From contig JAHLKV010000002.1 of assembly GCA_020444475.1 (NCBI GenBank), positions 496,001 through 560,000 on the forward strand: a stretch of 64,000 bases of DNA, in the 5' to 3' direction. Source of the DNA: a bacterium (GTDB taxonomy: Bacteria; Zixibacteria; MSB-5A5; GN15; FEB-12). This document shows positions 396 through 28,776 of the stretch, piece after piece. Made by a program: the position numbers and the translations under genes. Below the pieces are notes generated by a model. It had not been told where the DNA came from. It ran no database searches and saw nothing but the letters and a program-made list of their open reading frames with translations. The first letter of the stretch is position 1; every line of letters starts with the position of its first letter.

Positions 396-1277
396 TTACT
401 TGAGCATCAGCATCTTCTTGGTGTCGGTGAACTGATCGGTCGAGAGGCGATAGAAATAGACGCCGCTGGCAACCCGGGTACCGGCATCGGTGGTGCCGTC
501 CCAGACCACTTTGTGTTCGCCCGCGAGCATCTCGGTATTGACGAGCGTCTTGACCTTCTGGCCGAGCAGGTTGAACACGTCAAGTCTAACATCGCCGGCC
601 ATCGGGAGGGCGAAGCCGATCGTGGTGGTCGGGTTGAACGGATTCGGGTAGTTCTGGGCCAGCGAGTAGTTCATCGGGACTTCGAGGTCGCCGCCATCGT
701 TGGCATCGGACGGATCCTTAACGACCAGCGGTCCGAGCCAGATCGGGAAGATCTCGTCACCGGCGTTGTAGCCGCCGTTGATCTGGTAGTTCACGGTCGG
801 GTAGGGAGTGCCGACCCTGACGGTGTCGAACACGACCGAATCAGCCGCCGTCCAGTTATCGACGTGGAAGTAGTAGGTAACCCACTTATCCCAGGTGCTG
901 TTGGCCGGGACGCCGGGAACACCAAACGCAACGGTGTTGACCAGCATGATCTGTTCCAGGTTAGTCGTGGCGATGTTGTTAAGCAGGTAGTAGCTCACGA
1001 TAGCGAACGGATTGCCCTGCACATGACCGGCAGCACCTCTCGCCGAGTCGAGCTGCACATTCGGGTTGTCCCATTCGAAGGCGATCGATGTTCCGACGAT
1101 AGCCTGGGAGTCGGTCCAGAGCCACATCTCGACGATGAAAGTAGAGTCGTCGGCGCCTGCTGCTGGTCTTGTAGCGACCAACTTCAGCGAATCCGGAGCA
1201 CCGAGATCCGCGGCCAGGGCCGGGACAGCGCCCAGAACGAGCAGTCCGAGGAAAAATGAGGTCAGTAACGACTTCAT
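396..1277 (-). CDS. secreted cohesin-like protein with C-terminal sorting domain
   Basis: A 293-residue exported protein. Residues 1-22 form a signal peptide ending ALA-A. Residues about 30-180 are a beta-rich domain with the cohesin-like pattern of an extracellular scaffold module (S-I-A-F-E-W-D-N-P-N-V, then V-N-T-V-A-F-G). Residues about 205-293 are a Por/T9SS-type C-terminal sorting module: Y-P-N-P-F-N-P-T-T-T-I, G-Q-K-V, W-D-G, S-G-V-Y-F-Y-R-L and a terminal K-M-L-M-L-K. It is transcribed alone between its own promoter and terminator. The biochemical role is unknown; export and surface attachment by a type IX-like route is inferred from the C-terminus. The start is well supported by GGAGG 10 bases upstream. 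Confidence 0.88.
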   Translation of the reverse strand: MKSLLTSFFLGLLVLGAVPALAADLGAPDSLKLVATRPAAGADDSTFIVEMWLWTDSQAIVGTSIAFEWDNPNVQLDSARGAAGHVQGNPFAIVSYYLLNNIATTNLEQIMLVNTVAFGVPGVPANSTWDKWVTYYFHVDNWTAADSVVFDTVRVGTPYPTVNYQINGGYNAGDEIFPIWLGPLVVKDPSDANDGGDLEVPMNYSLAQNYPNPFNPTTTIGFALPMAGDVRLDVFNLLGQKVKTLVNTEMLAGEHKVVWDGTTDAGTRVASGVYFYRLSTDQFTDTKKMLMLK

Positions 1278-1382
1278 GGTTAAAATGCCTCCATGTTCTG
1301 TATCTTTTGTATCCTTCGTAACTTACACAGCAAGAAAGAAGGTGCGGCCCCGCTGCGGCAGATGGGAAATCCGCACCGCGTT

Positions 1383-1411
1383 ACGATATACGATTGACGA
1401 AAGTCAGTCAA
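1383..1411 (-). promoter_or_regulatory. possible sigma70-type promoter for the 293-residue protein gene
   Basis: TTGACT (1406-1411, minus strand) is followed after 17 bases by TATCGT (1383-1388), or after 15 bases by TATATC. The leader of about 100 bases contains the 1341-1377 stem-loop. Confidence 0.5.
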
Positions 1412-1495
1412 TAAAAAAGTAACCTATTCCTGCACAGTACATATGTAATAACCCGAAACTAGCAAATCCGTTCACTAAAACGCAAATTATGTGCC

Positions 1496-1550
1496 GCCCG
1501 GGAAAAGGGCCGAAATCGGCTCAAAGCAAGTCGAATGCCCGGGAAAAGGG
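1496..1550. repeat. 14-bp direct repeat, two copies 41 bases apart
   Basis: GCCCGGGAAAAGGG occurs at 1496-1509 and again at 1537-1550, immediately beyond the protease terminator and about 85-130 bases upstream of the next promoter. It may be an operator or a chance duplication. Confidence 0.6.
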
Positions 1551-1551
1551 A

Positions 1552-1585
1552 AACGGCCGCTCCGAGACGAGTCGGAGCGGCCGTT
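1552..1585 (-). terminator. intrinsic terminator of the subtilisin-like protease gene
   Basis: A perfect 14-bp stem (1552-1565 with 1572-1585) with loop GACGAG lies 20 bases after the protease stop codon. On the minus strand it runs into TTCCCTTTTCCC. Confidence 0.75.
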
Positions 1586-1605
1586 GCAGAGTTATTTAGT
1601 CTACT

Positions 1606-3993
1606 TTATCCACAGGCGGGAATGCATGCCGCCGGGGCGGGACCGCCAAGGAACAGGTAGTTTACGAGGTAGATGAGATCCGACAGGTCTATTGCACAGC
1701 CGAGATCGCCGTTCACGTTGGCAGCACCGACGCACGCCGGAGCCGGCCCACCGAGGAACAGGTAGTTAACCAGGTAAATCAGGTCGGAGAGATCGACCGC
1801 ACCGCCGCCATCGCCGTTCACGTTACCGGTCGAGCCGATGCAGCAGCCGGCCAGATAGAGGTAGCCGGGTTCGAACGTAGGCACAAAGGCGCCGATGGGA
1901 CTGATCAGCTCGTTGTTCCGGCTGCCGAAAGTGGTTGTATCGATCACGATCGGCGTTGACTCGGCGTAGTTGCCGGGCACGTTGAAATTGAGAGTCATGA
2001 CCGGTCCGCTACCGGCCGGCAGCCAGTCGGTATCACCGGGATCACTGACGGTGATAATCACCGAATAGCGATCGTTGGCCACGTCGTAACCTTGAATTTG
2101 CGCCGTCATGCCTTCACAGCGGGTTCCTGTCAGATCAGGAGATGCAAAGACGACGCCGTCATCGTTGGGGATCCTAAACGAGTACTCGATACTCGTCACC
2201 GGAATTGAATTAGTCAGGCTGATCGTCACGGGGACCGTGGTGCCGGGGATCGCTTCGACCGAATCCGCCTTCACCGTATCAGCCTGCGCCCAGACGTAGC
2301 GATTGAGTCGCTCAGTGCCAACACCGTTGGCATCGGTCACTTCCAGCGTAACCGTATAAAGCCCGGGAGCAGTATAGGTGTGCTGAGGGTTCTGATCGGA
2401 GGAGAAGCCACCATCGCCAAAATCCCAGTCCCAGGTCGTGGGGCTGTTGGGTGACAGGTCAGTGAAGTCTATCGTCAACGGCACCGGACCATCGGTCTCG
2501 GTCGACGTGAACTGAGCGTTCGCCATGGTCGACAGCGCGTTGAAGGCGTTGATGCGGCCGGTACCGAGTTCGCCCGCATACGACGGGTTAATGGCGTCGA
2601 TATCGTCGGTGGTCGCCATGATTACACTGTCAACCTGTGCCTTCGTCAGCGTCGGCATCGCCGAGCGAATCAGCGCCGCGAGACCGGCCACCATCGGGGA
2701 GGCCATCGACGTACCCGAGTAGGTGTCGATATCCGGCGTGTAGGCGTTGGAGACGGTCGAAAGAATTCCGGAGCCGGGAGCCGACACATCGACCCACGCA
2801 CCGTAGTTCGAGAATGAAGACTTGGTGTCGTTGTCGGTGGTCGAGGCTATCGAGAGCACATTGGTCCCGAACCCGTCGAGGGCATCGGGGCAGTCGCAGT
2901 TGTCATTGCCGGCAGCGTGGAGAAGGGTCAATCCGGCGGAGGCTGCGAGCGCGATTGCGGTCGACTGCGTGGAGCTGCCGCCCCAGGACATGTTGATGAT
3001 ATCGGCGCCCATCAATCTCGCATAGTCGATCGCCTGGGCGGCGTTGACCGGATTGACATAACCGTTGCCGTCACTCGCCGTACCGCCGATGCGACACACC
3101 ATGATGCGCGATCCGCGGTGGGAGCGATGCGCACCCGCCCAGCCGCCGGCCAGACCAATCACATCGGTCGTGTTGTTTGTTACGGCGGCGGAGATCCCGG
3201 CACAGTGCGTCCCGTGACCGTCGAAGTCGTTGGGATCTTTGTCCGGCGGACCCGGATCCTCACCGGTCATAACGGTGAAACCACCGCTGAAGAAGTCCCA
3301 TCCGATAACGTCGTCGACGAAGCCGTTACCGTCGTCGTCGACCCCGTTGAAGTCGTCGTCGTCCCACACGATGCCGTCACCATCGATATCTTCGCCGGGG
3401 TTCACCCAGATATTAGCCTTGAGGTCGGGGTGGTTATAGTTCACGCCGGTATCGAGAATGGCGATAACGACATTGTCGGAACCCTTTTCGTACTCCCAGG
3501 CGGATTCAAGTTCGAGTTCGATACGATGCCACTGGCTGGTGAATTCGGGATCATCGGGCGTGGCCGTGACCGGCATGGCGTACAGGATATGCACGTCGCT
3601 GATCCGGGGATTCTGCAACAGATCGTCGCGCACGGCATCGAGATCAGCAGTCTCCGGCAAAGTCAGCTGGTACATGCGCGTCAGCCGCTTCTCCTCGAGA
3701 CTCGTCGCAAGGCTGGCCTGACGCCAGGGGAAGACTTTGGCGGCGGCGCTGATCTGGTGCTTTTCGAAAAGTTGATCGACCGAAGCCAGGCCCACGGAAA
3801 CAAAGCCGAAGCCCTGCTGCACCTGCTGGATGTTGGCATCGGACTCAAACTCGATAACGAGCGTGCCCTGCATGAGGATCGGCTCGGCCTTGGCGCTGTT
3901 GGGATCGACGTTCGCTTGCGCCAACGGCGCGAGGAGCGCGAGAACGGCCAGGACCGTCAGAAGCATACCCGTTCGGGTGACGCGCATAGCCAT
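1606..3993 (-). CDS. secreted subtilisin-like serine protease with PKD and dockerin-like domains
   Basis: A 795-residue S8-family endopeptidase. A signal peptide (1-27, ending AQA) is followed by an inhibitor-like propeptide region. The catalytic domain has D181 in I-L-D-T-G-V, H260 in D-G-H-G-T-H, oxyanion N363 in A-A-G-N-D and nucleophile S429 in S-G-T-S-M-A-S-P, so all key residues are present. A PKD domain follows (about 490-570; W-D-W-D-F-G-D-G), then a cohesin-like beta domain (about 575-725). Two dockerin-like repeats close the protein (about 735-795; V-D-L-S-D-L-I-Y-L-V-N-Y-L-F-L-G-G-P-A-P and I-D-L-S-D-L). It probably acts outside the cell and is held to a surface assembly through the dockerin end. 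An Asp/Gly-rich stretch (199-228) just before the catalytic His may bind calcium. RBS GAAAGGAAA precedes the start. Confidence 0.93.
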   Translation of the reverse strand: MAMRVTRTGMLLTVLAVLALLAPLAQANVDPNSAKAEPILMQGTLVIEFESDANIQQVQQGFGFVSVGLASVDQLFEKHQISAAAKVFPWRQASLATSLEEKRLTRMYQLTLPETADLDAVRDDLLQNPRISDVHILYAMPVTATPDDPEFTSQWHRIELELESAWEYEKGSDNVVIAILDTGVNYNHPDLKANIWVNPGEDIDGDGIVWDDDDFNGVDDDGNGFVDDVIGWDFFSGGFTVMTGEDPGPPDKDPNDFDGHGTHCAGISAAVTNNTTDVIGLAGGWAGAHRSHRGSRIMVCRIGGTASDGNGYVNPVNAAQAIDYARLMGADIINMSWGGSSTQSTAIALAASAGLTLLHAAGNDNCDCPDALDGFGTNVLSIASTTDNDTKSSFSNYGAWVDVSAPGSGILSTVSNAYTPDIDTYSGTSMASPMVAGLAALIRSAMPTLTKAQVDSVIMATTDDIDAINPSYAGELGTGRINAFNALSTMANAQFTSTETDGPVPLTIDFTDLSPNSPTTWDWDFGDGGFSSDQNPQHTYTAPGLYTVTLEVTDANGVGTERLNRYVWAQADTVKADSVEAIPGTTVPVTISLTNSIPVTSIEYSFRIPNDDGVVFASPDLTGTRCEGMTAQIQGYDVANDRYSVIITVSDPGDTDWLPAGSGPVMTLNFNVPGNYAESTPIVIDTTTFGSRNNELISPIGAFVPTFEPGYLYLAGCCIGSTGNVNGDGGGAVDLSDLIYLVNYLFLGGPAPACVGAANVNGDLGCAIDLSDLIYLVNYLFLGGPAPAACIPACG

Positions 3994-4226
3994 AGCGAGA
4001 TTTCCTTTCGATATCGAAATGTCGTACTGAGTTCTCTTTATTTTTCTAAACGACAGATACGGCTAATCTCTTAACCGTCCACCAGTCGTAACGGTTTCCT
4101 CGGCAGACCGACAGGCCGGGCTTTTTCCGACAGTTGCCGGTTTTGGGCCGATGTGAGAACAAGTGAGGTTCTTGTGACAGTATGACAGGTACCCGGTGTT
4201 CGGCGGGTGTGCCACCGAACACTTCC

Positions 4227-4254
4227 AATATACGCCATCGACGGGTTTGGACAA
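4227..4254 (-). promoter_or_regulatory. possible promoter of the subtilisin-like protease
   Basis: Minus strand TTGTCC (4249-4254) and TATATT (4227-4232) are spaced by 16 bases. It lies just past the T-tract of the preceding terminator and would give a leader of about 230 bases. Confidence 0.5.
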
Positions 4255-4292
4255 ACAAAAAAATGACCGCCCTCGCCTGTGCGAGAGCGGTC
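4252..4292 (-). terminator. intrinsic terminator of the 1137-codon gene
   Basis: The stem GACCGC-CTCGC (4265-4276) pairs with GCGAG-GCGGTC (4281-4292) with one bulge on each side and loop CTGT. On the minus strand it is followed by ATTTTTTTGTTTGT, a strong U-tract. Confidence 0.88.
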
Positions 4293-4342
4293 ATATCGGT
4301 CATCTGACTGAGCGCACTCAGTCAGCATCTGGTGCTAGTCGC

Positions 4343-7300
4343 TTAGCATCCGGGGATGCAGGCGGCCGGAGCCGGACCACCCAGGAACAGGTAGTTCACC
4401 AGGTAGATCAGGTCAGAGAGGTCAACCGAGCAACCCAGGTCACCGTTGACGTTGGCCGCACCGACACACTGCGGAGCCGGACCACCCAGGAACAGGTAGT
4501 TCACCAGGTAGATCAGGTCGGAGAGGTCAGTGGCATTGCCCGGATCGTTGTTGACGTTACCGGTCAGACCGATACAGCAGCCGGTCGGCAGCGGGCGCAC
4601 AGCCAGCGGCGCGTGGCTGGTGAACCAGGCACGGCCGGCCTGGATAGCCGACACGAGGTCAGCTTCGACACCATTGCGAATCGTGGCCATAACCACATAG
4701 TAGACCAGCGTATCGCCGGCGGCCAGGTCGTAATCCTGGAACAGCCCCATAACCATGTGCTGGTCTTCAGTGTTCGCGTCGATCGTGAAGCCGCTCTCGC
4801 CGGTAATATTCCGATAGAGTTCGATCGGAATGAAGTTACCGGCCGGGAGGACAAAGGTCGGGTTCGACGCGGTGTAGAACCGTTCCGGCGGAGTGCCGGT
4901 CTCAAGACCGGTAGTGGAGTTGTCCTCGAAGCCGATCAGGGCAGCGCCGCCGAAGCGACCGCTGTTGTCCTGACACTCGAGGCTGTCACCCTGCGGATCG
5001 GTGTATTCACCACCGCGGTTGTACAGAATTCCGCTAACCGGAACCTGGCCGGCAGAGTTGTCGGCGCCGGAGTCGGACGGAATATCCCAGTCCCAGGCCT
5101 CACCGAGTACCAGACCGGTCTTGGCCGACCCGTCGGTTGACCACATCGCCACGCGCTGGATGATGAAGGACGCATCGCCGGCATCTGTCGGCGCATACGA
5201 GGTCTTCTCCATCGTCAGCGAGGAGTCACCGGTCGTGAAGAAACCGGACCAGTAGGCTTCGTACAGACCACCGGTCAGAGAATCCGCAAGCAGACCCGGG
5301 GCGTCATAGCCGAGGTCGGACAGCGGACGGAAGGCTTCTTCGGTCGCCAGCGAGGTGCTGAAGATCGACCAGTTGGCGGCGATCGTCGTATCCGTACCGC
5401 TGATGCTGTCAATCCACAGGACAAATGACGAGTTGTCGTAGAGGTAGACGCGCGCGTCGCCCGGAATGGTGTCCAGGGTCGAAAGCGCATCGCACTCGTC
5501 GCCGCTCAACCAGAAGTCCATGTTGGCGCGACCGGAGTCGGCACCGGCGATACCGGTGTTTCCGGCGCGACCGGAGTTGCCGTTGTTACCAACGGTCAGG
5601 CTGATGTAGCCGGTCGAGATGGTATCCCAGGCCAGGCCAACGATCGTATCAGCGATGATCAGTTCGATATCGAGGCTGATGGAGTCACGAACGGTCGGCT
5701 CGTCGACCCGAAGGACGATCTTACCGATCAGGTTCACGACCGTGCCGGCGGCGCCGTTAACGATGCCACCGTTATTCAGGGTCACGAGAGCGGTATCGAA
5801 GTTGTTCGGAGCGATACCGAGGCTCACGACAGACTGGTCGACGGCAAGCCAGCCGCTCGGACCGTTGTCCTCCTGAACGACCAGCTGACCACTCAGCGGA
5901 GCAGTACCCGAGTTTTCGATGATCAGATTCAGCGAAGAATCGACACCGTGCTGCAGGTAGGTCGGGAAACCGATCACCGTCGGCGACAGGTTCGGGTTGG
6001 CTTCAACCACCGGCTCAACGCACGGCAGACGGAACCAGCGAACCGGGTTACGCGTCAGGGTCTCGTCATCCTGGGTGCCGATACCCGGGGCCTTATCGTG
6101 GATGTACATGACATCCAGGAAGTAGGTACCGGTGTAGGACGGATCGGGATCAACTTCGTCGACCGCCTGGGTCGGGAAGGTGAGCGAGCCGAAATCGGCA
6201 TTGTTCATACCGTAGCGCGACATGGTCGGCCAGTTGTCACTGGCGCAGTCGTTGGAACCATCGACGACCGTGTCGCAATCAGGCGTGTAGGAGTTGGTCA
6301 GGTTGCGAGCAGCATCCCAGGCCAGACCGGTCAGGCCGGCCGAGACCGACAACCAGAGATCGCCGTTACCGTTGCGGCCGGCGCTGAGGTCGGCAGAGCA
6401 GTCGTCGACGAGGCCTATGGTCGGGTCGTTGGACTGGACCCAGATGACATAGAGGCTGGTGTCGCACTGGGAGATGCTGGCGGCGCGGGTGTTCAGCGAG
6501 TTGACATCCATCACACCGCAGACATCGTTCGGATTCCACTCGGCGTTGTGCACGGTGGAGATAACGCCGGTCTGGCTGGCCCAGTGGAAGACACGGCACT
6601 GACGGCCGGTCGCCGTGGTGCCATCGTAGACGTTGGCGTTCCAGACGATGTGGAGGTTGTCATCCGTGTCATAGAGGCCGGCACTTTCCAGCCAGGCACG
6701 GTGACCGGGGACGCCGGCCGCATAGTTGGTCACGTTGATGACCGGGCCGAACGTGGCGCCCATGTCGGTGGACTCGCGATAGGCGATATCGCGATCGGAG
6801 CTGCCTTCGGTCTCACCGGCGGCCGGGACCGTGTAGACCACGGCGACCTTGCCGGAGATACGAGAGGCGACGACATCCTGCGAGATGAAGAAGCAGGTGT
6901 CGATGATCTGGCCCTGCCAGGTGTTGGCGTCACCGAGGCGGCCTTCTACGCGCCAGAAGACAATCGGTTCGACCGCGGCATCGGACGAGCCGTAGCTGAC
7001 GGCGTAGGTGAATGTATCGTTACCGTTGATATGGTATTCGATTTTCGGCCAAATGAGGTTGTCGGCCGTGTAGAACAGATCCTCGAGCGCATCGCCGATG
7101 CGGTTCGTGGCCGAGAAATCGCAATAGCCGTCAAGCTGTGTAGCCTGATCCCAGAACACCTGGGACTGGAAGTCTTCACCGGTATTCGGCGAGACGTGAG
7201 CGCCGTACACGACACTGGCCAGCTCGCCCGACACACCCGGATCCGGGGGACGGACGTCGATGTTACAGAAACCGGCGCGCTGGATGTTCGGGTCGACGAC

Positions 7301-7723
7301 CGGGCAGCCGGCGCCGCCGTTGAGCGGCAGGGTACCCGAGATCGGATCGAACATCTGATAGGCGACCGTACGGTCACCGGTCACGTTCAGCGACGGACCG
7401 AAGGTGTAACCAAAATGAATCTGCGGACCACCGCGCCAGTCAACCTGGCGGCCCATGGTCGAGTTCTGCTGGACATCGTAGTACGAGAAACCGATCTGAC
7501 GACCGGCCGAGCCACCGTCCATCGCTTCAAGGCCAATCGGCCAGTTGATGCGGCTGGTAGCGGTGGAAACGCCCTCGTTACCGATAACTTTCATCGTGGG
7601 CTTCAACAGGAAGTCGTAAGCTTCCATCTTGTCGATAGCCGCATTTTTTGCGACTGCCGTAACGCCCAAAAGCCCTACCAGTACCAGGGACAGGACAAAG
7701 AACATTGAAAGTTTTCTTGCCAT
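4343..7723 (-). CDS. large secreted propeller-type protein with two C-terminal dockerin-like repeats
   Basis: About 1126 residues from the ATG at 7723. I prefer this start because MARKLSMFFVLSLVLVGLLG is a clean signal peptide and AAAGGATC precedes it; an in-frame start at 7756 would spoil the signal. The first ~550 residues resemble a sialidase/BNR-type beta-propeller, with one clear Asp-box (S-T-D-M-G-A-T-F) and L-H-I-V-W-N-A repeats. About 580-690 is an Ig-like/CARDB-like domain (I-E-N-S-G-T-A-P-L-S-G). Further beta domains follow. The last ~65 residues are two dockerin-like repeats. No catalytic residues could be assigned, so a binding or structural surface role is as likely as an enzymatic one. 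It is a single-gene unit with promoter 8129-8157 and terminator 4252-4292. Confidence 0.9.
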   Translation of the reverse strand: MARKLSMFFVLSLVLVGLLGVTAVAKNAAIDKMEAYDFLLKPTMKVIGNEGVSTATSRINWPIGLEAMDGGSAGRQIGFSYYDVQQNSTMGRQVDWRGGPQIHFGYTFGPSLNVTGDRTVAYQMFDPISGTLPLNGGAGCPVVDPNIQRAGFCNIDVRPPDPGVSGELASVVYGAHVSPNTGEDFQSQVFWDQATQLDGYCDFSATNRIGDALEDLFYTADNLIWPKIEYHINGNDTFTYAVSYGSSDAAVEPIVFWRVEGRLGDANTWQGQIIDTCFFISQDVVASRISGKVAVVYTVPAAGETEGSSDRDIAYRESTDMGATFGPVINVTNYAAGVPGHRAWLESAGLYDTDDNLHIVWNANVYDGTTATGRQCRVFHWASQTGVISTVHNAEWNPNDVCGVMDVNSLNTRAASISQCDTSLYVIWVQSNDPTIGLVDDCSADLSAGRNGNGDLWLSVSAGLTGLAWDAARNLTNSYTPDCDTVVDGSNDCASDNWPTMSRYGMNNADFGSLTFPTQAVDEVDPDPSYTGTYFLDVMYIHDKAPGIGTQDDETLTRNPVRWFRLPCVEPVVEANPNLSPTVIGFPTYLQHGVDSSLNLIIENSGTAPLSGQLVVQEDNGPSGWLAVDQSVVSLGIAPNNFDTALVTLNNGGIVNGAAGTVVNLIGKIVLRVDEPTVRDSISLDIELIIADTIVGLAWDTISTGYISLTVGNNGNSGRAGNTGIAGADSGRANMDFWLSGDECDALSTLDTIPGDARVYLYDNSSFVLWIDSISGTDTTIAANWSIFSTSLATEEAFRPLSDLGYDAPGLLADSLTGGLYEAYWSGFFTTGDSSLTMEKTSYAPTDAGDASFIIQRVAMWSTDGSAKTGLVLGEAWDWDIPSDSGADNSAGQVPVSGILYNRGGEYTDPQGDSLECQDNSGRFGGAALIGFEDNSTTGLETGTPPERFYTASNPTFVLPAGNFIPIELYRNITGESGFTIDANTEDQHMVMGLFQDYDLAAGDTLVYYVVMATIRNGVEADLVSAIQAGRAWFTSHAPLAVRPLPTGCCIGLTGNVNNDPGNATDLSDLIYLVNYLFLGGPAPQCVGAANVNGDLGCSVDLSDLIYLVNYLFLGGPAPAACIPGC

Positions 7724-8128: not shown

Positions 8129-8157
8129 AAAATACTGCCGATTTGGGTATTTGTCAA
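8129..8157 (-). promoter_or_regulatory. strong sigma70-type promoter for the 1137-codon gene
   Basis: Consensus TTGACA (8152-8157, minus strand), a 17-base spacer and TATTTT (8129-8134). The predicted transcript begins near 8122, about 400 bases ahead of the start codon. Confidence 0.75.
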
Positions 8158-8262: not shown

Positions 8263-11200
8263 TTACTGCGGCGGCTGCGGGCCGTTGTTGTACATGAAGT
8301 TAATCAGGTAGAAGATATCGGTCAGGTTTACCCCGGTATCGGCGTTCACATCCGCCACATCCATCAGCTGCGGCGCCGGACCGTTCCGGAACAGATAGCT
8401 GACCAGGACCCCTAAGTCGTTCATAGTGTAACGGCTATCGAGATCGATATCACCCCGCAGGGCGTTCACGACCAGGATTGAGGTCGAGATCGTGTCGGCC
8501 AGACCGGACGGATCCGAGGTGATAAACGTCACCAGCTGATTGGTGCCGACATCAGTCAGATCCGGCTGCCAGCGGAAGGTCCCGCCGGTGGCGCTCGGGA
8601 CAAACGACGCTCCCGGCAGGGTCGGGTCAAGCGGCGTGCAGGTGGTGGTCAGGGCATCCAGATCCGGATCGTAGGCTGTCACCGGCAAGCTATAGAGCGA
8701 ACCGGCGGCAATAACAGTCTGCGCGCCGAGTACGGTGGTGAACACCGGCGCCTGATTGCCCGCCTCGGTGACGGTTATCTGCACCGTCTGGGTGTCAGTG
8801 GCGCCAGCGACATCAGTAGCTGTGAACAGAACCGCATAGCTTCCGGCCTGCGTGAAGTCCGGCGTGAACCGGAACGTACCCAGGTTCGGGAAGCTGGCAT
8901 TATACTGCGCGTTGCTGTCCGGCAGGTTGGAGACGGTGATGGTCGCGAGCGCGCCACCGCCATCGGGATCGTCGGCGAACACCTGGAACGACAGCGTGTC
9001 GCCCTCGGAGATTGTAAACGGTCCCGATCCGCTGGGGAAGCCGAGGGCCGGCGGCTGGTTGACATTGTTCACGCGGTATGCGATCGACGGTCTCGTGTTA
9101 CTCAGACCAGAATCGACCGAGTCGACCACCGTGAAGTCGATGTAGTAGATCGAGAAGAGACCGCTGACGTTGTTGCCCTGCGTGTAGTCGGGCGTGAAGA
9201 CCACCGTCCCGGTGCCGTCACGATTGTCGATGAAGGTCATGTTGGCCGGCAGTGTCGTCAGGCCATTCTCATTCGCATAGATGTACGGCGTATCACCGTC
9301 GTTGTCGGCAACGGTAATCGTGACTATCAGCGTATCCCCTTCGCCAACCGTCTGGGCCTGCGGTCCGGGCGGCGGGAAGTAGGGTAGCTGGTTGACGTTG
9401 GTCACCGTGATGGTGACGACCTGAGAGTCATAAACCGCCGGATCAACAGCATCGATCGCATAGAAGATCACCTCATGCGTACCCGAGTCGCCGTAGCCCG
9501 GCGTCCACGTGAACGAGCCGTTGCCGAGGATAGTGGGACTGGGGACGAACGTGGCGCCGGTCGGAAGCGGTCCTGTCGTCACGATCGGCGGATTCTCATC
9601 AGCATCAGTCGACTGGACGATGATCACCAGTTGCTGGTTCTCGGCCACTGTTGTGTCGGGGATCGGCTGCAGCACCGGTGTCTGGTTGCCGGCTTCAAGA
9701 ACCTCAAGGGTGACCGTGATCGTGTCGGAGGTCGCCGCAGCGTCGGTCACGATGATACCGATATCGTAGAATCCGGCTGCGATGAAGTTCGGTGTCCAGG
9801 TGATCGTGCCGGTACCGTCGCCGTTGTCCGTGAAGGACGCCCCGTTGGGCAGGGTGCCGTCCACAATAGAGAGCGTGACCGGGCCACCGTCAGGATCGGA
9901 GGCACTAAATCCAAACGAGCCCTCGATACCTTCAGTGATGGTCGGAGAGGGAATCGAATCAAAGACCGGAGCCTGATCGCCGGCCTCCAGCACCTGGAAG
10001 AGCACCGTCATACGGACGACATCAAAGCCGTCGCTGGCGCTGAAGGTGACGGAGTAGAGCGCCGAAGGACCATCGCCGGCCTGCGTGTAATCGGGCGCAA
10101 ACTGGAACGCCGCCGTACCGTCGCCCAAATCCACCAGGGTGGCGTTGTCGGGCAACGTACGAGCAAAGATGCTGGGCGGCGAAGCACCATCGGGATCTGT
10201 CGCCGAGATCAGCAGCGAAAGCACATCACCTTCCGTAACCACCTGTGGTCCAACCGGATCGAAGACCGGCGGGTCGTTCACCTCGACCACGTTCACGACT
10301 ATTGTCCCGGTTGTCGACAGCGCCGGCGAGCCCTGATCGACACCCAGAATGCTGAACGTCCGCTGGCCGAGATCGGCCGTCGTCGGGATGAACCGGAAGG
10401 TACCGGTGTTGTTGCCGTTGTCCACGAAGGTCGCGTTCGACGGCAGGGTCACGCCGGAGAGCAGGACGCGCGGATTGGCCGCCGGGCTGGTCGAGTCGGC
10501 GGCGGTGACCGTCACGAACAACGTGTCGTCGACCGTCACGCCGTACGGGCCACCCGTTTCGATTGTCGGCGCCTGGTTGACATCGATCGTGGTCAGCCGG
10601 AGCCCGAGCACGGCCGTCTGCGGCGGCGTGCCGCCATCATTCGCAATGAAGAAGACGGAGTCGGTACCGGCCTGATAGTAGTCAGGCGTATACGTGAACG
10701 TACCGGTGCCGTCGTTATTATCTATGAACGAATACTGGGAAATGCTGATCCCGGTCGTGATCGACAGAGCCGGAATGGTGCCGTCGGGATCGGTCGACGT
10801 GATCGTCAAGGTCAGCGTACCACCTTCACTCACCGAGGTATCCGGCTGCGCTACGAACACCGGCGGGCGATTGCCGGCTTCATTGACGGTGATCGTCACG
10901 ATCGCCGTGTCATCGGCGGTGCCGTCCGAAGCGATAAACGTCACGGGATACGTGCCGTTCTGGACGAAGTCGGGTGTGAAGCTGAAGGCGGCCGTACCGT
11001 CGAGATTGTCCGTGAAGGTCGCGTTGGCCGGCAGATTCTCGGCCGTCAGCGTCGGAATCGTACCGTCGGCGTCGGTCGCCGTAAGCGTGACATCGAGCGT
11101 CTGCCCTTCGACGATCGTCGTGTCGTTGAAGGCGGTCAGGACCGGTGTCTGGTTACCGGCATCGTTGACCGTAATCACGACATCCTGGGAGTCGATATCA

Positions 11201-20322: not shown

Positions 20323-20378
20323 TGCTACCTCTACCATCTATTCATCATCACAAACATTCTCTGTATGCAAACTGCCAT

Positions 20379-22832
20379 CTATTTCAGGAGCATCATCTTA
20401 CGCGACAAGGCCGCGCTCTCGGTCTCCAGTCGGTAGAGATAGATCCCCGACGATACCGAGCCTCCGGCCTGATCGGTTCCATTCCACGTAACCTGATGGC
20501 TCCCAGCCGTCAGATTCCCATCGAACAGGACCTTCACCTTCTGTCCCAGCACATTGTATACCGACAGCCGAACCGCCCCGGAAACCGGCAGATCGAAGGC
20601 GATTCGGGTCTCGGGATTAAACGGGTTCGGGTAGTTCTGATACAGCGTAAACTCTTCGGGCAGTGCGGGTTCAGACGAATTCAGCGACAACGCCGCCGTC
20701 CGACCGTCAACCGTCCCCATCTCTGCTGCAATCAGCGTAATACTTTCTGCATTTTCGACCACGAACAGCTCGTGATGTCCGGCCGGAAGACGCTTGCCCT
20801 CGAGCGAGTAGAGCAGCACCCGAATAGTGGTACCATTCTGCCCGGCAGCCATCATCATCTCATGGCCGTCGGCCTTAATCTTGTTCAGATCGAAACTGGG
20901 AGGGGCTTCAAGGGTAATAAGCGCTGCCGCGATCTCAACCGGGCAGTCGTACCAGAACTCACGGTTGCTGTACTCGGTAAGCTGCTCTGACCCCAAAGTT
21001 GCCTGCGGCGCCGGCTCATCAAGAAGCTTCGGTGTCGTCGCCCCGCCGTACACGACGACATTGATCAGCCTCACCAGATCGGCCAGCGATGCCACAATCT
21101 GATCGTTGTTGATATCGGAGTTGGCGTACTGCAGCGCCGTGAAAGGATACTGCGACGGATTGATAAAGTGATTCGTAAACAGGATCACGTCGCTGATCTC
21201 ATAGGCGATACCATTCAGGTTAATGTCACCTATCTTCACGGTGCCGATCGAGCGGATCGTGACCGCGCCGTTGGCGCGATACACCTGGGTCGTGTCGATA
21301 CGCGCACCGACCGTATCAGTCAACACGTTGTCCGGGTTTGACTGGCTGCCGAGATACTTGAATGAAATCGGCACCTGGTATCCGGAGAAAGCCAGATCAC
21401 CCGTCACGCCGAAAGTCAACCGGGCGATCGGTCCGTCGCCGGCCGCCAGAACTTCGTTGATCGGCGAGCTCTGATCGGCGATACCGACCACACGAACATT
21501 TCCCGGAATCGAATACTCATCGTAGATGACATTGAAATAATCGAAATCTGCCGCCCGCGTGCCGGAGTTGGTGACATCGATGATACTGGTCGCGGTCCTG
21601 TCGTAGCCGAACAGGATATTGAATCCCGTAACGGGAACCAGGTTCTCGAGCAGAATGTCAACATCGACCTCGCCGCCAAGGTCAGCTGTAACCGTGTCGA
21701 TAACCAAAGAATAGAGCGTCGCGGTGCGGACGCGGACGGTTACCAACGCGGTGTCAGCCGCTGCATCGGGGTCTTCGACAACAAACTGCACCTTGTATTC
21801 CGACGTATCGGTGATCGGCGCCTGCCAGGTGTACGTGGAAGGATCACCTTCGGTAAACTGATAGTTGCTCTGCAGCGACGAGACCTGCCAGGTAAGATCT
21901 TCGAAGTCGGCGTCGGTCGCGGTGATGCTGAACGACATGCTCTCACCGGCCGCGACAACCACCTCCTCCGGAGCGGTGATCTTCGGCGCCCGGTTGACAT
22001 TGACGACGTTCAACGCGACCGACTGCTCGACCGAGAACTGGCCGTCACCGGCCCAGAAGACGACCGAGAACGGTGACCCATCGGACGAGTACGGTCCGAC
22101 GAAGCCCGGTGTCCAGACAAACCGGCCCGTGCCGTCGCCGTTGTCGACAAACGACGCGCCGGTTGGCTTGGAAGTCGCCGCCAGTTTAACGTTGTCGAGA
22201 TTCGGGTCGTTGATAGCGACATCAAGCACCAGCTGCTCACCTTCGTACACATACTGATCCTGAAGTCCGACAAACGTCGGCGCCTGGTTGGGGACTTTGA
22301 TCGTGATGACGCCGGGGGTGAAGTCGGGCCGAATCTGGGTGCCGACCGAGTTTTCACTGAGAATCAGTTCGCCGCCGGGGGGATAGAAGAGGGTATCGAT
22401 CACCGTCTGGGTGCCGGGCTCGGCGTTCGGATTGACCGTAAAGGTCGCCGTGAAGTAGAGGCCATCGCCGGCCGGTATCGGCGCCTCGGAGAATCGAACC
22501 ACCGCCGCTACAAAGTGGCCATGAATATCCGCGGCTTTCTCCGGGGAGATCAATCGGGTTTCCCAGTGTTCTGCCCGGGACCCTTCGAAACTGAGCGCCG
22601 TCAGCGTCAGCAGGCTGGTATCATAGGTAAGTGGTACCGAGATGGAACCAATGGTCTCGTCGTTACGCAGGTTGACCTGCACCGTTACCTGTTCACCGGC
22701 CCGCGCTTCCACCGCATCAATATAGACGAGATCGGGCTCGCCATACGGGTCATCGGCGGCAACACCAAAACCCGCTGCAAAGAACAGCAGAATCAGTAAA
22801 ACTACCGCAGAACGCCCCAAACTCGCAAACAT
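20379..22832 (-). CDS. secreted cohesin/Ig/dockerin-like protein with sorting domain
   Basis: An 817-residue protein and the first gene of the large surface operon. The signal peptide ends GVAA (about residue 25). A cohesin-like domain (about 33-175; Y-I-D-A-V-E-A-R-A-G-E-Q-V-T-V) is followed by two cadherin/Ig-like domains (about 180-375). A second cohesin-like domain (about 378-520; D-I-L-L-E-N-L-V-P-V-T-G) and a dockerin-like pair (about 530-600; G-D-I-N-L-N-G and S-D-I-N-N-D-Q) follow. The Por/T9SS-type sorting module is at about 725-817. Carrying cohesin-like and dockerin-like parts in one chain suggests self-assembly. The gap to the next gene is about 56 bases. RBS is GGAG in GACAGGAGAACGT. 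Confidence 0.9.
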   Translation of the reverse strand: MFASLGRSAVVLLILLFFAAGFGVAADDPYGEPDLVYIDAVEARAGEQVTVQVNLRNDETIGSISVPLTYDTSLLTLTALSFEGSRAEHWETRLISPEKAADIHGHFVAAVVRFSEAPIPAGDGLYFTATFTVNPNAEPGTQTVIDTLFYPPGGELILSENSVGTQIRPDFTPGVITIKVPNQAPTFVGLQDQYVYEGEQLVLDVAINDPNLDNVKLAATSKPTGASFVDNGDGTGRFVWTPGFVGPYSSDGSPFSVVFWAGDGQFSVEQSVALNVVNVNRAPKITAPEEVVVAAGESMSFSITATDADFEDLTWQVSSLQSNYQFTEGDPSTYTWQAPITDTSEYKVQFVVEDPDAAADTALVTVRVRTATLYSLVIDTVTADLGGEVDVDILLENLVPVTGFNILFGYDRTATSIIDVTNSGTRAADFDYFNVIYDEYSIPGNVRVVGIADQSSPINEVLAAGDGPIARLTFGVTGDLAFSGYQVPISFKYLGSQSNPDNVLTDTVGARIDTTQVYRANGAVTIRSIGTVKIGDINLNGIAYEISDVILFTNHFINPSQYPFTALQYANSDINNDQIVASLADLVRLINVVVYGGATTPKLLDEPAPQATLGSEQLTEYSNREFWYDCPVEIAAALITLEAPPSFDLNKIKADGHEMMMAAGQNGTTIRVLLYSLEGKRLPAGHHELFVVENAESITLIAAEMGTVDGRTAALSLNSSEPALPEEFTLYQNYPNPFNPETRIAFDLPVSGAVRLSVYNVLGQKVKVLFDGNLTAGSHQVTWNGTDQAGGSVSSGIYLYRLETESAALSRKMMLLK

Positions 22833-23459: not shown

Positions 23460-24302
23460 TTAACAGCCTTCACAGGGAGCGGGACCACCGTTAAAAAGGT
23501 AGTTCACCAACCAGATGAGATCCGACAGATCAATCCCCGGGGTACAATCAATCATCGCCCACGCGGGTACGATTGGCGCCGGACCTCCGAGGAACAGGTA
23601 ATTCACGAGATAGATGAGATCCGACAGATCGATATTCAACTCCGTGTCGCAGTTAACGTTGCCGCAACTAAACAACGGCGCGTAAACCAAGGTGACACAT
23701 TGCGGTCCGGAAAACGCGGGCATTATATCCCCGGCTGGCGGATATGATGCCGCGCTGCCCAGCCACCGCCATTGGTAAACAGGGTTCGGCGCGGTGGCGG
23801 CATTGAAGACCGAATCGATGCAAATTGTCAGGCCATCGTGCGCCGGACCATGATTGAGCGTGACGGCGACTTCCCACGCTGGCTCACTATAGCCGCCCGA
23901 CGGGACGCCCAGTCCACCCAGGATGGCCGTTCCCAGAAAGCGGACGGTGTCGGCTCCGGATCCGGTCGGACTCCCGACCGGTTCAGCCGCGATCACCGGA
24001 AACGTACTGCTGCTCCAGTCGGAGGTGACGAATGCCGGTGTGACGTCTTGCCATGTCGCGCCATCGGGCGAATACACCCGGAAACCGTTGATGAAGCTGT
24101 TGAGACTCTGCACGTCTTCTTTCATCTCGACCCTGATGCGAAACACCAACTCGCCACCGCAATTTATCCACACGGAGTCACTTCCGTAGAGTGGACCGCT
24201 TATCTCATCAAATACAATCGCGTTATCTGTCACCTGGCTCATCGATGAGCCGGCAATGCATATGGCCAGCATACCTGCCAGCAAAATCTTTGTGCGCTTC
24301 AT
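23460..24302 (-). CDS. secreted protein with two C-terminal dockerin-like repeats
   Basis: About 280 residues from the ATG at 24302. The signal peptide MKRTKILLAGMLAICIAGSS and upstream GGGAG/GGGG favour this start over 24368. Residues about 22-205 form a domain that is plainly homologous to the N-terminal domain of the 866-residue protein at 24660-27260: V-T-D-N-A-I, V-Y-S-P-D-G-A-T-W, G-A-D-T, D-G-L-T-I-C-I-D-S and F-S-G-P-Q-C. The last ~65 residues are two dockerin-like repeats with D-L-S-D-L-I-Y-L-V-N-Y-L-F. The domain's function is unknown. No strong terminator was seen after the gene. Confidence 0.87.
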   Translation of the reverse strand: MKRTKILLAGMLAICIAGSSMSQVTDNAIVFDEISGPLYGSDSVWINCGGELVFRIRVEMKEDVQSLNSFINGFRVYSPDGATWQDVTPAFVTSDWSSSTFPVIAAEPVGSPTGSGADTVRFLGTAILGGLGVPSGGYSEPAWEVAVTLNHGPAHDGLTICIDSVFNAATAPNPVYQWRWLGSAASYPPAGDIMPAFSGPQCVTLVYAPLFSCGNVNCDTELNIDLSDLIYLVNYLFLGGPAPIVPAWAMIDCTPGIDLSDLIWLVNYLFNGGPAPCEGC

Positions 24303-24659
24303 ACCCCGTTTCTCCCAGCCTAAACGTGCCCGAACTCCGGAAGCGCCAGCAGTCAAAATCAATATCAATCATTCCCGTGAATGACGCCCCTCACAAATGC
24401 AAAAAAAGACAATCCCGTTCGGTAGGTTCCCTCCAGTGGGGCCGGTCAATGTCATCATGACGACCATCCTCTTTGTCCTACGTCAGGTCATGCCTTTCGC
24501 GATTCATGCCGTTCCTGGTTATCCGTTATCGAGTGTCGATGGAGCCTCCACGATTCGCTGTCGGTTTCGATTTCGGTTTCGAATATATCCCCGGAGAGGG
24601 GTTAACCTCTCCGGGGTATTGTCAAGCGTCAGAGACGCCTGGCAGACAAGAGAACAGAA
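24303..24659. other. intergenic region
   Basis: Only the terminator at 24589-24616 is recognisable. The remaining bases have no good promoter match and the plus-strand open frames are not credible. Confidence 0.5.
24589..24616 (-). terminator. stem-loop terminator after the 866-codon gene
   Basis: CCCCGGAGAGG (24589-24599) pairs perfectly with CCTCTCCGGGG (24606-24616), loop GGTTAA, 44 bases after the stop codon. On the minus strand it is followed by ATATATTC rather than a pure T-tract. Confidence 0.65.
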
Positions 24660-27260
24660 CTACTTCAGAAGCACCATCTTCATGGTCTTCGAGAAGTCGT
24701 TCGCCGACACCTTGTAGAAGTAGACACCAGACGACTGGTTCGTCATGTCGACTTCGATCGAGTGGGTACCGGTCTGGAACGTGCCGTTGATCTGCTTCAC
24801 GAGCTGACCCGTGACATTGTAGATCTTGACGGAAACGTCGCTGCTGGCCGGCAGAGCGAACTCGATAGTGGTGGTCGGGTTGAACGGGTTCGGGTAGTTC
24901 TGGGCGACCGAGTAGTCAGTCGGCATCTCGAGGTTGCGGACCGGGGTGCCGTCGTACGTAGCCATCTCGATGTAGGAGATGGAACCGTTGGCATCCAGGA
25001 AGGAACCTTCGAACGTCGCATTGGCTTCGGTCGAGTAGATGATGGTTCTCCACTGGCCATCGACCTCAGCGGTCTTGAATTCCATGTTGTCAGCCAGAAG
25101 GACCGGCTCGGCGCCTTCGCTGATCACGAAAGCGGCGGCAACAGGAGCATTGACCGTGAGAACGCCGTTGGCGTTGGTGTAAGAAACATCAACCGGTACC
25201 GTCTTCGGATAGGCAACAGCGTCACCGACGACGACACGGATCAGGTACACAAGGTCAGCAACCGTCAGGGTCAGACCGTCAGCGTTGACGTCGGAAGCAG
25301 CGGTAGCGGCTTCGATCGGGAACGTGGCGCCCTGAATGATGGTGAAGGCCGAGGTGCCATAGATGAAGTAGTTGGTGAACATAACCACGTCAGCGATGGT
25401 GTTGGCCACGCCGTCGAGGTTGATGTCGCCACGGGCGTCGATGTCGTCAGCACAGACGATGTCCACGCCACCGTTGAAGAAGCCAGCGCCTTCGTACGGG
25501 CTCGGCTTGTTCGGATCCGGGTTCACGAGGCACTCAGCCTGCACACCCAGATAGGTCGGGAAGCCGTAGTTCGGATTCGCCAGGTTGTCGGAGTACGGAG
25601 CCTGCGGATCGAAATTCTGGTAGTCATAGACAGCCTGAGAAACGATCAGCGTGTCACCAGCCCAGTTGGACATGGTGTTGTCCGTGCAGTCAACCCAGAA
25701 GAAGCGAACCGGCACGTACTGGCACTCGAGGTTACGGTCGGAGGAGACCAGGAACTCGAGCGAGAAGAGAATACCGGTTTCGCAGAGATCGGTCGGATGG
25801 TTCGGACCATCGTTGGTCTCGGCAATACCGGTGACACTCACCAGACCGGACGGGCAGCCGCCGGAGCAGTTGCCGTTGGCGCCGGTGCGGAACGTGAAGT
25901 ATTCCCAATCGCAGTCCTGATAGAACGGCGAGTTGTCGACGTTAGCGCCCGAGAAGCTCAGAGCCGAAGCATCATAAGCCATCAGGAAGCTGAAACCGCC
26001 GATCGGACCGTCAGCCGCTAGCATGGTAACGTCCACCGTGGTGAACTGACCCTGCAGAGCGCCAAAGCCGGTCTGACCCTCGTCCTTCTCAATCACGACC
26101 TGGTACGGAGCACCAGACGAGACGAGATAGTTCAGCGTGCAAGTCGTGGCCATGTCACCGTCAGTCGCTTCGACGATAACGTCGTAGGGACCGTCGACGG
26201 TCGGCGTGAAGCTGACGATACCAGCGGCATCAACCGAAGCTTCGGCAGCGCCGGTTCCGCCAACGATCGACCAGGTGATCACATCGCTGCAGCCGTCGGT
26301 CGCGTTCAGATCGGTCGTACGGGTGACGCCGGTCTGAGCCGAGATCACATCAACCGGGCAGTTGGTGATGACCGGAGCCTGGTTGTTGACGATCACGTTA
26401 ACCTGGGCAACCGGACCCTGACCGGCAACCGGATCAGAGGCAGCGACCTCAAGTACGTAGTTGCCGACATCGCCAATGCCCGGATTCCAGCTCCACACGC
26501 CATCGTTGTCAATGGTACCAGGACCGCTGACCACGGCGAAGGTGTACGGAAGGTCGTTTTCCGGATCGGCAGCGTCAAAGTCGAACTCGAAGACGCCGCA
26601 GTGCAGGTCTTCGATATCCGTCGGGGCATTCGTGATGCTCGGCGGAATGTTCGGAATGAAGGCATAGGTGAAGCAGTGCGGGCCCGAGAAGGTCGGGAAC
26701 ACATCACCAGACGGGGCATAAGCAGCACCCTGAGCGGCCCACTTCCAGGTCAAGGACGGCGGGAAGGTAGCCGTCGAGTCGAGACAGATGGTGAGACCAT
26801 CGTTGGCACCGTCGTTGACGGTCGGCATCGTGATGGCCCAGGCCACGCCGCTGTAGCCGCCGGCCGGGATGACCAGACCGCCACCAAACGACACGCCGTT
26901 GAAGCCGATCGTGTCGGCGCCGGCACCGGTGGTCCACTTGTTGACCGACGTCACGTTGAAGTTGCCACCAGCCTGAGAGAAGTCGCTGTTGACAGAGCCG
27001 TCGATGAGGCCCCACGTGGCGCCGTCGGGCGAGTAGACGGTGAAGCCACTGGTGTAACCAGCGAGGACCCCAACGTCTTCCCGGATGTTAATACGAAGGT
27101 TGAACTGCACCTGAGCGGTTACGTTGTAACCAATCGTGTCGGTGCCGGTCAAGCCGGTCGTATTATCGAGGATAATCGCATTCTCTGTTACCTGAGCGTT
27201 TACCAGCCCAAAAGCAAAGACTGCTACAAACAAAGCAAGGAAAAATGAAATGCGCTTCAT
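24660..27260 (-). CDS. secreted Ig/cohesin/dockerin-like protein with sorting domain
   Basis: An 866-residue protein; signal peptide 1-22 (ending VNA). Residues about 23-205 share a homologous domain with the neighbouring 280-residue dockerin protein. Two Ig/cadherin-like domains follow (about 210-380; Q-A-P-V-I-T-N-C-P-V), then a cohesin-like domain (about 385-600; S-F-L-M-A-Y-D-A-S-A-L-S-F) with several cysteines. A dockerin-like pair (about 635-705; G-D-I-N-L-D-G-V-A-N and S-D-V-N-A-D-G) and a Por/T9SS-type sorting module (about 785-866; Y-P-N-P-F-N-P-T-T-T-I, S-G-V-Y-F-Y-K-V) complete it. RBS AGGAG lies nine bases before the ATG. Probably a surface structural protein; the actual ligand is unknown. 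Confidence 0.9.
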   Translation of the reverse strand: MKRISFFLALFVAVFAFGLVNAQVTENAIILDNTTGLTGTDTIGYNVTAQVQFNLRINIREDVGVLAGYTSGFTVYSPDGATWGLIDGSVNSDFSQAGGNFNVTSVNKWTTGAGADTIGFNGVSFGGGLVIPAGGYSGVAWAITMPTVNDGANDGLTICLDSTATFPPSLTWKWAAQGAAYAPSGDVFPTFSGPHCFTYAFIPNIPPSITNAPTDIEDLHCGVFEFDFDAADPENDLPYTFAVVSGPGTIDNDGVWSWNPGIGDVGNYVLEVAASDPVAGQGPVAQVNVIVNNQAPVITNCPVDVISAQTGVTRTTDLNATDGCSDVITWSIVGGTGAAEASVDAAGIVSFTPTVDGPYDVIVEATDGDMATTCTLNYLVSSGAPYQVVIEKDEGQTGFGALQGQFTTVDVTMLAADGPIGGFSFLMAYDASALSFSGANVDNSPFYQDCDWEYFTFRTGANGNCSGGCPSGLVSVTGIAETNDGPNHPTDLCETGILFSLEFLVSSDRNLECQYVPVRFFWVDCTDNTMSNWAGDTLIVSQAVYDYQNFDPQAPYSDNLANPNYGFPTYLGVQAECLVNPDPNKPSPYEGAGFFNGGVDIVCADDIDARGDINLDGVANTIADVVMFTNYFIYGTSAFTIIQGATFPIEAATAASDVNADGLTLTVADLVYLIRVVVGDAVAYPKTVPVDVSYTNANGVLTVNAPVAAAFVISEGAEPVLLADNMEFKTAEVDGQWRTIIYSTEANATFEGSFLDANGSISYIEMATYDGTPVRNLEMPTDYSVAQNYPNPFNPTTTIEFALPASSDVSVKIYNVTGQLVKQINGTFQTGTHSIEVDMTNQSSGVYFYKVSANDFSKTMKMVLLK

Positions 27261-27681
27261 TTTTTTCTCCTACTTAGTCCAATTCTTAGTAGCCGATTTG
27301 GACGAATAATAAGTTCTCTTTCTTTTCCCCCTCTGCCACTGTTATGAGCCGTCGGAGAATGAGAGCCACCAGATCCTCTAGACAACCCCGGCCAGAGCAG
27401 AAAGAGTCAATTATCCGTTTACTCATCTTGAGCGCGTGCTACTACCTCTTGTAAGCGTCCTCCCTACCATCAAAGGGTTTTTCTTTTCAAGTGAAACGGC
27501 ACGGCGAAACGCCGCCCCGTGTTTCTTTCGTGACTAACCAATTTGAGACTATCGCTCGTATGTTTACTACTCGTTAGTTCGAAACTAGAAGTACGTTTTG
27601 CAGTCATTCATGCGCCCGTTTGTTCGCGCCTCACGCCGGCCCGCCCCACATCGCCAGGCCGGCATCACAGCGCCGATTGCC
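27261..27681. other. 421-base intergenic region
   Basis: It holds stem-loops after the 364-codon gene (27635-27663 and a weaker one near 27505-27525) and the leader of the 866-codon gene. TTGACT (minus strand, near 27406-27411) is a possible -35, but no good -10 follows at the right distance. Nothing else is recognised. Confidence 0.45.
27635..27663 (-). terminator. possible terminator stem-loop of the 364-codon gene
   Basis: GCCGGCC (27635-27641) pairs with GGCCGGC (27657-27663), 18 bases after the stop codon. There is no T-tract, so it could act by Rho or only as a 3' barrier. Confidence 0.35.
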
Positions 27682-28776
27682 TCAGCAACCGGCGCAGGGT
27701 GTTGGACCTCCCAGGAAGAGGTAGTTCACCAGATAGATCAAGTCAGACAGGTCAACTTCGCCCGGTGTCCCGCAGTTCACGTCGGCGTTTATCATCGTCG
27801 GCGGCGGCGGGCCACCCAGGAAGAGATAGTTCACCAGATAGATCAGGTCGGAAAGATCGACCTCCCCCGCACCGTCGCCGTTCACGTTGCCGCACTGTTT
27901 GCACAGCACCAGCAGGGAGCCGTCCTGTACGAACACATTGGCGGTGTCGAGCACCGAAACAACCGAATTGAAATACTCTACGGAGTCGTACGGCGGCAGC
28001 GACACGCGAAGCCATTCGATACACTCGTCGCCATCGTACGACGTGCACCGGTACATGTTGCTGTCCGGAATCGTATCGGGCAGATAGCCGATCGCCGTAC
28101 CGTTTGGTCGTGAAAAGACGAACCACTGCTTGGCGAGATCGATGACTTCTATCGGAGAATCTTTAAAGACCGAATCGGGATCACATTCGAGCAGGTCGGC
28201 CTGCAGGCGGAAGAGCACGCGCGAGCCGCCACCGGACACCGGTGGAATGCCGGGCGTGTACCCCGGTATATCCTGGGTGTTGGCGAGCGCCGTCACACGG
28301 ATGTCATTACCGTCACCGTTGATATTGCGCGTATCGACAAACTCCCAGCCGGAAATCAACGTCCCGGCAGTGTCGATATTACCGATCAACGCCGCGACCG
28401 TATCGACCAGGAAGTAGTCCGGTGTCGGTCCATGCAGCGTTTCGATCCAGGTGACCGCCGAATCGCAGTCGGGCCAGGTCCCGGTGATACAATGCCAGTA
28501 GGTGGTATCGACCACCGTATCGATATCGGTCTGGAATTTGGCTATATCGCTTCGCGCGAAGCGAATCCACAGCGTAAACGCGCCCACCGTATCCTGATAG
28601 TTTTCCATATATACGGTGACGACGGAGTTCAGCTGGCCACCGGCGCCGGTGGTATCGCCTACACGAACAAAAAGAGTCTGAGCTTCAACTGTGGGGACCG
28701 CTGAAAATAATACCACAACGGCAACGAGAAGAATGAGCGGACGGTTGCACCGCGTGAGGTAAGAGCCGAACGGCAT
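27682..28776 (-). CDS. secreted cohesin-like protein with two dockerin-like repeats
   Basis: A 364-residue protein. The N-terminus MPFGSYLTRCNRPLILLVAV leads a signal peptide that ends at V-E-A (about residue 32). Residues about 35-215 are a cohesin-like beta domain (F-V-R-V-G-D-T-T-G-A-G-G-Q-L, F-T-L-W-I-R-F). A C-rich linker follows. The last ~70 residues are two dockerin-like repeats (C-G-N-V-N-G-D-G-A-G-E-V-D-L-S-D-L, then V-N-C-G-T-P-G-E-V-D-L-S-D-L). RBS GGAGG sits nine bases before the ATG. It is a single gene read from the promoter at 29119-29147. Role: probably a component of the surface assembly; not an obvious enzyme. Confidence 0.88.
   Translation of the reverse strand: MPFGSYLTRCNRPLILLVAVVVLFSAVPTVEAQTLFVRVGDTTGAGGQLNSVVTVYMENYQDTVGAFTLWIRFARSDIAKFQTDIDTVVDTTYWHCITGTWPDCDSAVTWIETLHGPTPDYFLVDTVAALIGNIDTAGTLISGWEFVDTRNINGDGNDIRVTALANTQDIPGYTPGIPPVSGGGSRVLFRLQADLLECDPDSVFKDSPIEVIDLAKQWFVFSRPNGTAIGYLPDTIPDSNMYRCTSYDGDECIEWLRVSLPPYDSVEYFNSVVSVLDTANVFVQDGSLLVLCKQCGNVNGDGAGEVDLSDLIYLVNYLFLGGPPPPTMINADVNCGTPGEVDLSDLIYLVNYLFLGGPTPCAGC

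Follow-up and report, generated by a model that had tools for sequence, protein, structure and literature searches.

The locus raises the question of whether a row of proteins with cohesin-like, dockerin-like and sorting modules belongs to a cellulosome-like surface assembly, and what such an assembly would hold. The window, the whole stretch of 64,000 nucleotides analysed here, is part of contig 4 of a Zixibacterium genome (3.41 Mb, 79% complete). The nine genes of the described set (396–28776) are all on the minus strand. The typical architecture of the window comprises five proteins with a terminal dockerin and six with a T9SS sorting tail (four on the minus and two on the plus strand). Genome-wide, these two sets number approximately 66 proteins each, which, with the presence of some cohesins on T9SS-tailed proteins, makes a cellulosome-like surface complex without cellulases probable. 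We consider that the locus is part of a large non-cellulolytic system of this kind, with putative docking of dockerin-tailed proteins on T9SS-sorted cohesin carriers, at a probability of roughly 0.6.

The terminal two-repeat dockerin-like tail typically contains the motif DLSDLIYLVNYLFLGGPAP twice. Profiles of our own were built because Pfam Cohesin (three places in the genome) and Dockerin_1 (reached at 1e-3 by 12 of 62 dockerin-tailed members) alone miss most copies. The tail profile gave 72 matches in the genome (E 1e-38 to 7e-3), and its highest-scoring matches in the PDB were dockerins (3ul4_B, E 0.003; 4fl4_A, E 0.009), so the tails of the window are not a chance resemblance. The 72 matches correspond to 66 ORFs in the genome stretches read, in 64 of which the dockerin lies no more than 30 aa from the C-terminus. 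The tails have the two F-hand calcium-binding repeats with helices of type I-like dockerins, and the PDB search showed that the repeats called dockerin-like in the preliminary description are homologous to solved dockerins. In the AlphaFold2 model of a cohesin–dockerin dyad (subtilase, 1606–3993), the dockerin part mostly had a pLDDT above 88, with helices at the expected places. The helix residues are near-invariant in both repeats of the 66 tails, and the repeat loops have up to two additional residues. Typically, a CC pair precedes repeat 1 and a C lies close to the end of the tail; a cysteine occurs in the last ten residues of 58/66 dockerin tails versus 1/66 T9SS tails. We infer from these positions that a disulphide clasp may join both ends of the tail. 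All near relatives of the tail come from Zixibacteria (candidate division GN15, RBG-1), and the organism is accordingly placed in that phylum.

The five dockerin-tailed proteins first described from their starts at 3993, 7723, 17433, 24302 and 28776 were confirmed, with tails 0–5 aa from the C-terminus. The protein at 1606–3993 is an S8 subtilase (2602–3477, Pfam E 5.8e-47) with a PKD domain (2311–2517), a cohesin found by the cohesin profile (1852–2295) and a terminal dockerin (1606–1836, 125–131 bits). The large secreted protein at 4343–7723 has a terminal dockerin (4343–4570) by the dockerin-tail profile; a Pfam search of its body found no family, and it has a paralogue elsewhere (L133, 39.5% over 1004 aa). 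The protein at 8263–17433 (3056 aa) consists of tandem Ig-like repeats and a terminal dockerin (8263–8463). The repeats number approximately 30, several of them near-identical, the dockerin is divergent, and homologous repeats occur in the T9SS-tailed protein L123. A small secreted protein at 23460–24302 ends in a dockerin (23460–23672), as shown by the tail profile. The gene at 27682–28776 encodes a cohesin-fold domain (27922–28689) followed by a terminal dockerin (27682–27897) that is the top dockerin-tail match of the genome (132.5 bits).

Six T9SS tails were likewise found, but only four of the six sorted proteins lie inside 396–28776. The other two are on the plus strand outside that range, at 38911–40518 (tail 40279–40506, TIGR04183 47 bits) and 40535–42067 (tail 41828–42052, 41.8 bits). 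The protein at 396–1277 consists of a signal peptide, a cohesin-fold domain (~813–1205) and a T9SS tail (411–650, TIGR04183 E 4.4e-9), and is a candidate minimal anchor; a homologue of its N-domain at locus L076 bears a dockerin tail. The remaining three sorted proteins contain internal dockerin and cohesin-type domains, as proposed earlier. At 17455–20337, the T9SS tail (17470–17730, 27.2 bits) is preceded by an internal dockerin (18181–18378, E 6e-22) and a cohesin-type domain (~18388–18825, upstream-region profile 97.9% cohesin). The scaffoldin candidate at 20379–22832 carries cohesin 1 (22299–22748), two Ig-like domains, cohesin 2 (21273–21728), an internal dockerin (21024–21233), a ~100-aa domain and a T9SS tail (20391–20633, E 3e-9). 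The protein at 24660–27260 has a T9SS tail (24672–24896, E 1.4e-13), an internal dockerin (25200–25433, E 1.7e-36) and a cohesin-type domain (~25461–26096) recognised by comparison with the cohesin profile. In these three proteins, the ~100 aa that separate the internal dockerin from the T9SS tail have no match to the T9SS tail or to the cohesin profile; as a cohesin this region was ruled out at 1.2% against the latter. The N-domain common to the proteins at 23460 and 24660 is also unsupported as a cohesin (20.6%).

The cohesin-like domains are true cohesins. The cohesin of 20379–22832 exceeds the Pfam cut-off (E 2.7e-13), and a profile of 11 cohesins of this genome matched PDB cohesins down to E 3.5e-5. 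The AlphaFold2 cohesin models were of low or modest confidence (mean pLDDT 60–64). In Foldseek, all 50 matches listed for the cohesin 1 model were cohesin-containing structures (TM up to 0.65), and the top 12 matches of the subtilase dyad model were cohesins. Both the sequence profile and the jelly-roll fold are thus those of cohesins, and the predicted fold is that of dockerin-binding cohesins. The divergent domains (396–1277, 27682–28776 and those ahead of internal dockerins) reached 96–98% probability in hhalign against a 90-sequence cohesin profile (95.9% for 396–1277 and 97.3% for 27682–28776), versus 0.1% for a T9SS tail and 13% for an Ig repeat as controls.

The modules had been described as shuffled, which was not borne out: their order is not random, and two fixed arrangements recur. 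In one, a cohesin precedes a terminal dockerin; in the other, a cohesin is followed by an internal dockerin, ~100 aa and a T9SS tail. A profile search of the 79% complete genome found 12 cohesins versus approximately 66 dockerins. Seven of the 12 immediately precede a dockerin tail, T9SS-tailed proteins carry four, and the remaining one is on a protein of 216 aa with neither tail. The recognisable cohesins number one or two per scaffold, and tandem pairs occur in relatives (L205, L236). The proposal that sorted proteins serve as cohesin anchors agrees with the T9SS-tailed carriers found here and across the phylum, but not with the seven dockerin-adjoining cohesins, which could be structural modules like X-modules instead of free sockets. 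If this held for the whole set, the modules would be ordinary calcium-stabilised or Ig-like blocks, the dockerin-adjoining cohesin folds would be stabilisers, and no large complex would form. The small number of free cohesins and the likeness of cohesin and CBM folds, with CBMs further down the Foldseek list of the subtilase dyad, fit such a reading. We regard it as unlikely, given that every genome checked has short T9SS-tailed proteins bearing a cohesin on its own, and that the helix positions of the dockerins are conserved in both repeats, presumably more than folding should need. Cohesins on T9SS-tailed proteins were found in all seven relatives' genomes, from seven families, and short proteins of ~270–390 aa with a cohesin and a T9SS tail in 7/7.

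The cargo carried by dockerin tails is rich in peptidases. The dockerin-tailed proteins include S8 (3), C25 (2), M28 (2), M14, M4 and C1 peptidases, a PAD-type deiminase, and FG-GAP, PKD and sortilin-like proteins; the T9SS-tailed proteins include S8 (5), C25, astacin and M6. No glycoside hydrolase was found among the strongest Pfam families of the 62 dockerin-tailed proteins (25 of the 26 families listed), and their strong matches include no cellulase or hemicellulase. The early characterisation as mostly non-cellulolytic is borne out by this cargo, and a cellulosome in the strict sense was rejected on it. A classical cellulosome that degrades plant cell walls shares the module types and has about as many dockerins, but with peptidases and a PAD-type deiminase as the catalytic domains found, it is a very improbable explanation. 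The C25 peptidases and the PAD-type deiminase belong to families that the T9SS of Porphyromonas gingivalis exports; here they bear a dockerin.

The preliminary description depended on T9SS core genes being present in the genome, and SprA (E 5.5e-16) and PorV-family proteins (eight matches over the cut-off) are. The sorted proteins have the signal peptide and TIGR04183-type C-terminal domain of T9SS cargo. Tails over the TIGR04183 cut-off number 62 in the genome. Eight PorV-family matches (contigs C6, C1, C5 and C2) are many for one T9SS; possibly there are several shuttle proteins of this family, each with different cargo. Signal-peptide-like starts by a simple rule were present in 61/64 dockerin-tailed and 62/64 T9SS-tailed proteins, versus 6/23 other genes of the window, the two plus-strand T9SS-tailed genes being left out of the 23.

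That no protein ends in both tails, as stated earlier, is trivial for a single C-terminus; counted genome-wide, 66 ORFs have a terminal-type dockerin and 66 have a T9SS tail, and none is common to both. An exception class is formed by eight T9SS-tailed proteins with a distinct internal dockerin subtype, which occurs only in these proteins and always ~140–240 aa ahead of the C-terminus.

In the phylum, dockerin tails (at most ~50 matches per genome scored) and cohesins were each detected in 113 of 118 Zixibacteria genomes, and SprA in 109. The five genomes that lack both modules belong to only two families (f9, f13); all five keep SprA, and their T9SS tails number between 116 and at least 150 per genome. 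The co-presence of cohesin and dockerin is a perfect match (Fisher p 6e-9, ignoring relatedness), although the two counts are not independent: many cohesin matches sit in dockerin-tailed genes, which by itself produces part of the co-occurrence. One genome of family f6 (G002) has cohesin-bearing proteins (L184–L190) with the divergent dockerin-like tail NVFDVVxLVDVAFR...C. This tail is mostly missed by the profile, and the dockerin counts of the family are therefore too low.

The two tails look interchangeable when homologous bodies are compared. With tails removed and a homology threshold of E 1e-6, 61 pairs of a dockerin-tailed and a T9SS-tailed body were homologous, or 1.5% of those possible, versus 2.6% and 3.3% within classes. 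A T9SS-tailed homologue exists for 24 of 64 dockerin-tailed bodies. An adjacent pair with opposite tails at L092 has 56% identity over 479 aa, another pair (L099/L142) shows 40% over 832 aa, and in the window the body of the protein at 23460 and the N-domain of its neighbour at 24660–27260 share 43% identity over 208 aa. The T9SS-tail density is 19/Mb in this genome versus 46–50/Mb in three dockerin-less genomes. Equal 200-kb samples gave 16 T9SS tails in dockerin-poor versus 3 in dockerin-rich genomes (p = 0.004), a contrast that is no more than suggestive, given small samples from related genomes. These swaps within the same protein families and the inverse density, together with the strict C-terminal position and cysteine-rich ends of the dockerin-like tail, would also suit a tail that, like T9SS tails, acts in its own right as a signal for export or anchoring, read by another apparatus and with no cohesin binding. 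This seems improbable to us, since the tail is homologous to cohesin-binding dockerins and cohesins occur in every dockerin-bearing genome and are missing from the five that lack dockerins.

According to the docking model that we prefer, the approximately 66 proteins with signal peptides that end in a cysteine-rich dockerin of two near-identical repeats are the cargo to be docked, and comprise S8, C25, M28, M14, M4 and C1 peptidases, the PAD-type deiminase, and Ig, PKD and FG-GAP proteins. T9SS-sorted cohesin carriers would receive them, directly or through cohesin–dockerin adaptors. The carriers would be short anchors with a cohesin and a T9SS tail, and larger scaffolds with a cohesin, an internal dockerin, ~100 aa and a T9SS tail; the cohesin–dockerin proteins may be adaptors or chain extenders. 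Export of the carriers and their fixation to the outer surface by the T9SS would make the dockerin tail an alternative surface-retention tail in families that otherwise have a T9SS tail. Cohesin–dockerin binding, the surface location and the assembly are what we infer from these genes. If they hold, docking is a general means by which uncultured bacteria across almost this entire phylum retain proteases and large beta-sandwich proteins, on a par with large cellulosomes in scale but without cellulose degradation.

The simple model in which sorted proteins are anchored to the cell and hold dockerin-tailed ones is consistent with cohesins on T9SS carriers but offers no outer-membrane route for the dockerin-tailed proteins. 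A gspD-type (T2SS/T4P) secretin was not found in the 79% complete genome even at E 1e-3, and secretin-bearing control genomes did match. The T9SS transports folded proteins (PMC9251779), so the export of dockerin cargo in complex with its carrier is possible; one route would be carriage through SprA while bound to the cohesin carrier. We speculate, with considerable doubt, that the dockerin tail could be a second secretion tail, which would bind a cohesin carrier in the periplasm and pass folded through SprA, so that one T9SS signal would serve two proteins. The speculation draws on the lack of a T2SS/T4P-type secretin, the Sec-type signal peptides of both classes, folded T9SS transport and the tail swaps. 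The interchange of tails on homologues gives a direct route to asking how surface retention evolves and whether the T9SS exports docked partners.

The concept of a T9SS-anchored or peptide-degrading cohesin–dockerin system is already published for Cloacimonadota and Planctomycetes. 'Ca. Stygibacter' (Cloacimonadota) has dockerin-tailed peptidases and a T9SS-anchored cohesin scaffoldin (PMC8542988), and the same combination of dockerin-tailed peptidases with T9SS-tailed cohesin proteins was found here. In both, S8 and C25 peptidases end in dockerins, cohesin carriers have T9SS-type attachment and the character is non-cellulolytic, whereas only 'Ca. Stygibacter' has the glycoside hydrolases GH18 and GH57 and a scaffoldin of 3755 aa that carries CBMs and tandem cohesins (PMC8542988). 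The Zixibacterium differs by its ~66 dockerin tails, its scattered cohesins (one or two to a protein), short anchors with a cohesin and a T9SS tail, scaffold-internal dockerins, tail exchange and distribution over the whole phylum. The 'planctosome' of Nemodlikiaceae (Planctomycetes) is a proposed cohesin/dockerin complex that degrades polypeptides (PMC6461901), and is similar in its modules and proposed function but has few components and a lamin-tail protein anchor instead of the T9SS. The clostridial and ruminococcal cellulosomes share the cohesin and dockerin homology and the cohesin–dockerin adaptor arrangement (PDB 4uyp, 5m2o, 3ul4); here, in contrast, the cargo is peptidases, the T9SS replaces S-layer or sortase anchoring, and the dockerin ends are cysteine-rich. 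Cohesin–dockerin modules outside cellulose degradation are also described for ANME archaea (PMC9012536) and the Limousia mucinolysome (PMC12997984). The T9SS resembles that of Bacteroidota in its SprA, PorV family and TIGR04183 tails, but many homologous cargo proteins here have a dockerin instead of a T9SS tail. A literature search, mostly without subscription journals, found no paper naming both Zixibacteria and dockerin. New here are the exchange of tails, the existence of two dockerin subtypes and of short anchors, and the system's scale and spread through the phylum.

Elsewhere in the genome, contig C1 has a dense cluster of approximately 13 dockerin-tailed genes at ~12–82 kb (L065–L070), including proteins of 1300–2600 aa. 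Two dockerin-tailed proteins ~150 kb apart on contig C4 (L111:3500–6619 and L112:411–3125) share 85% identity over 528 aa, which is a recent duplication of a body together with its tail.
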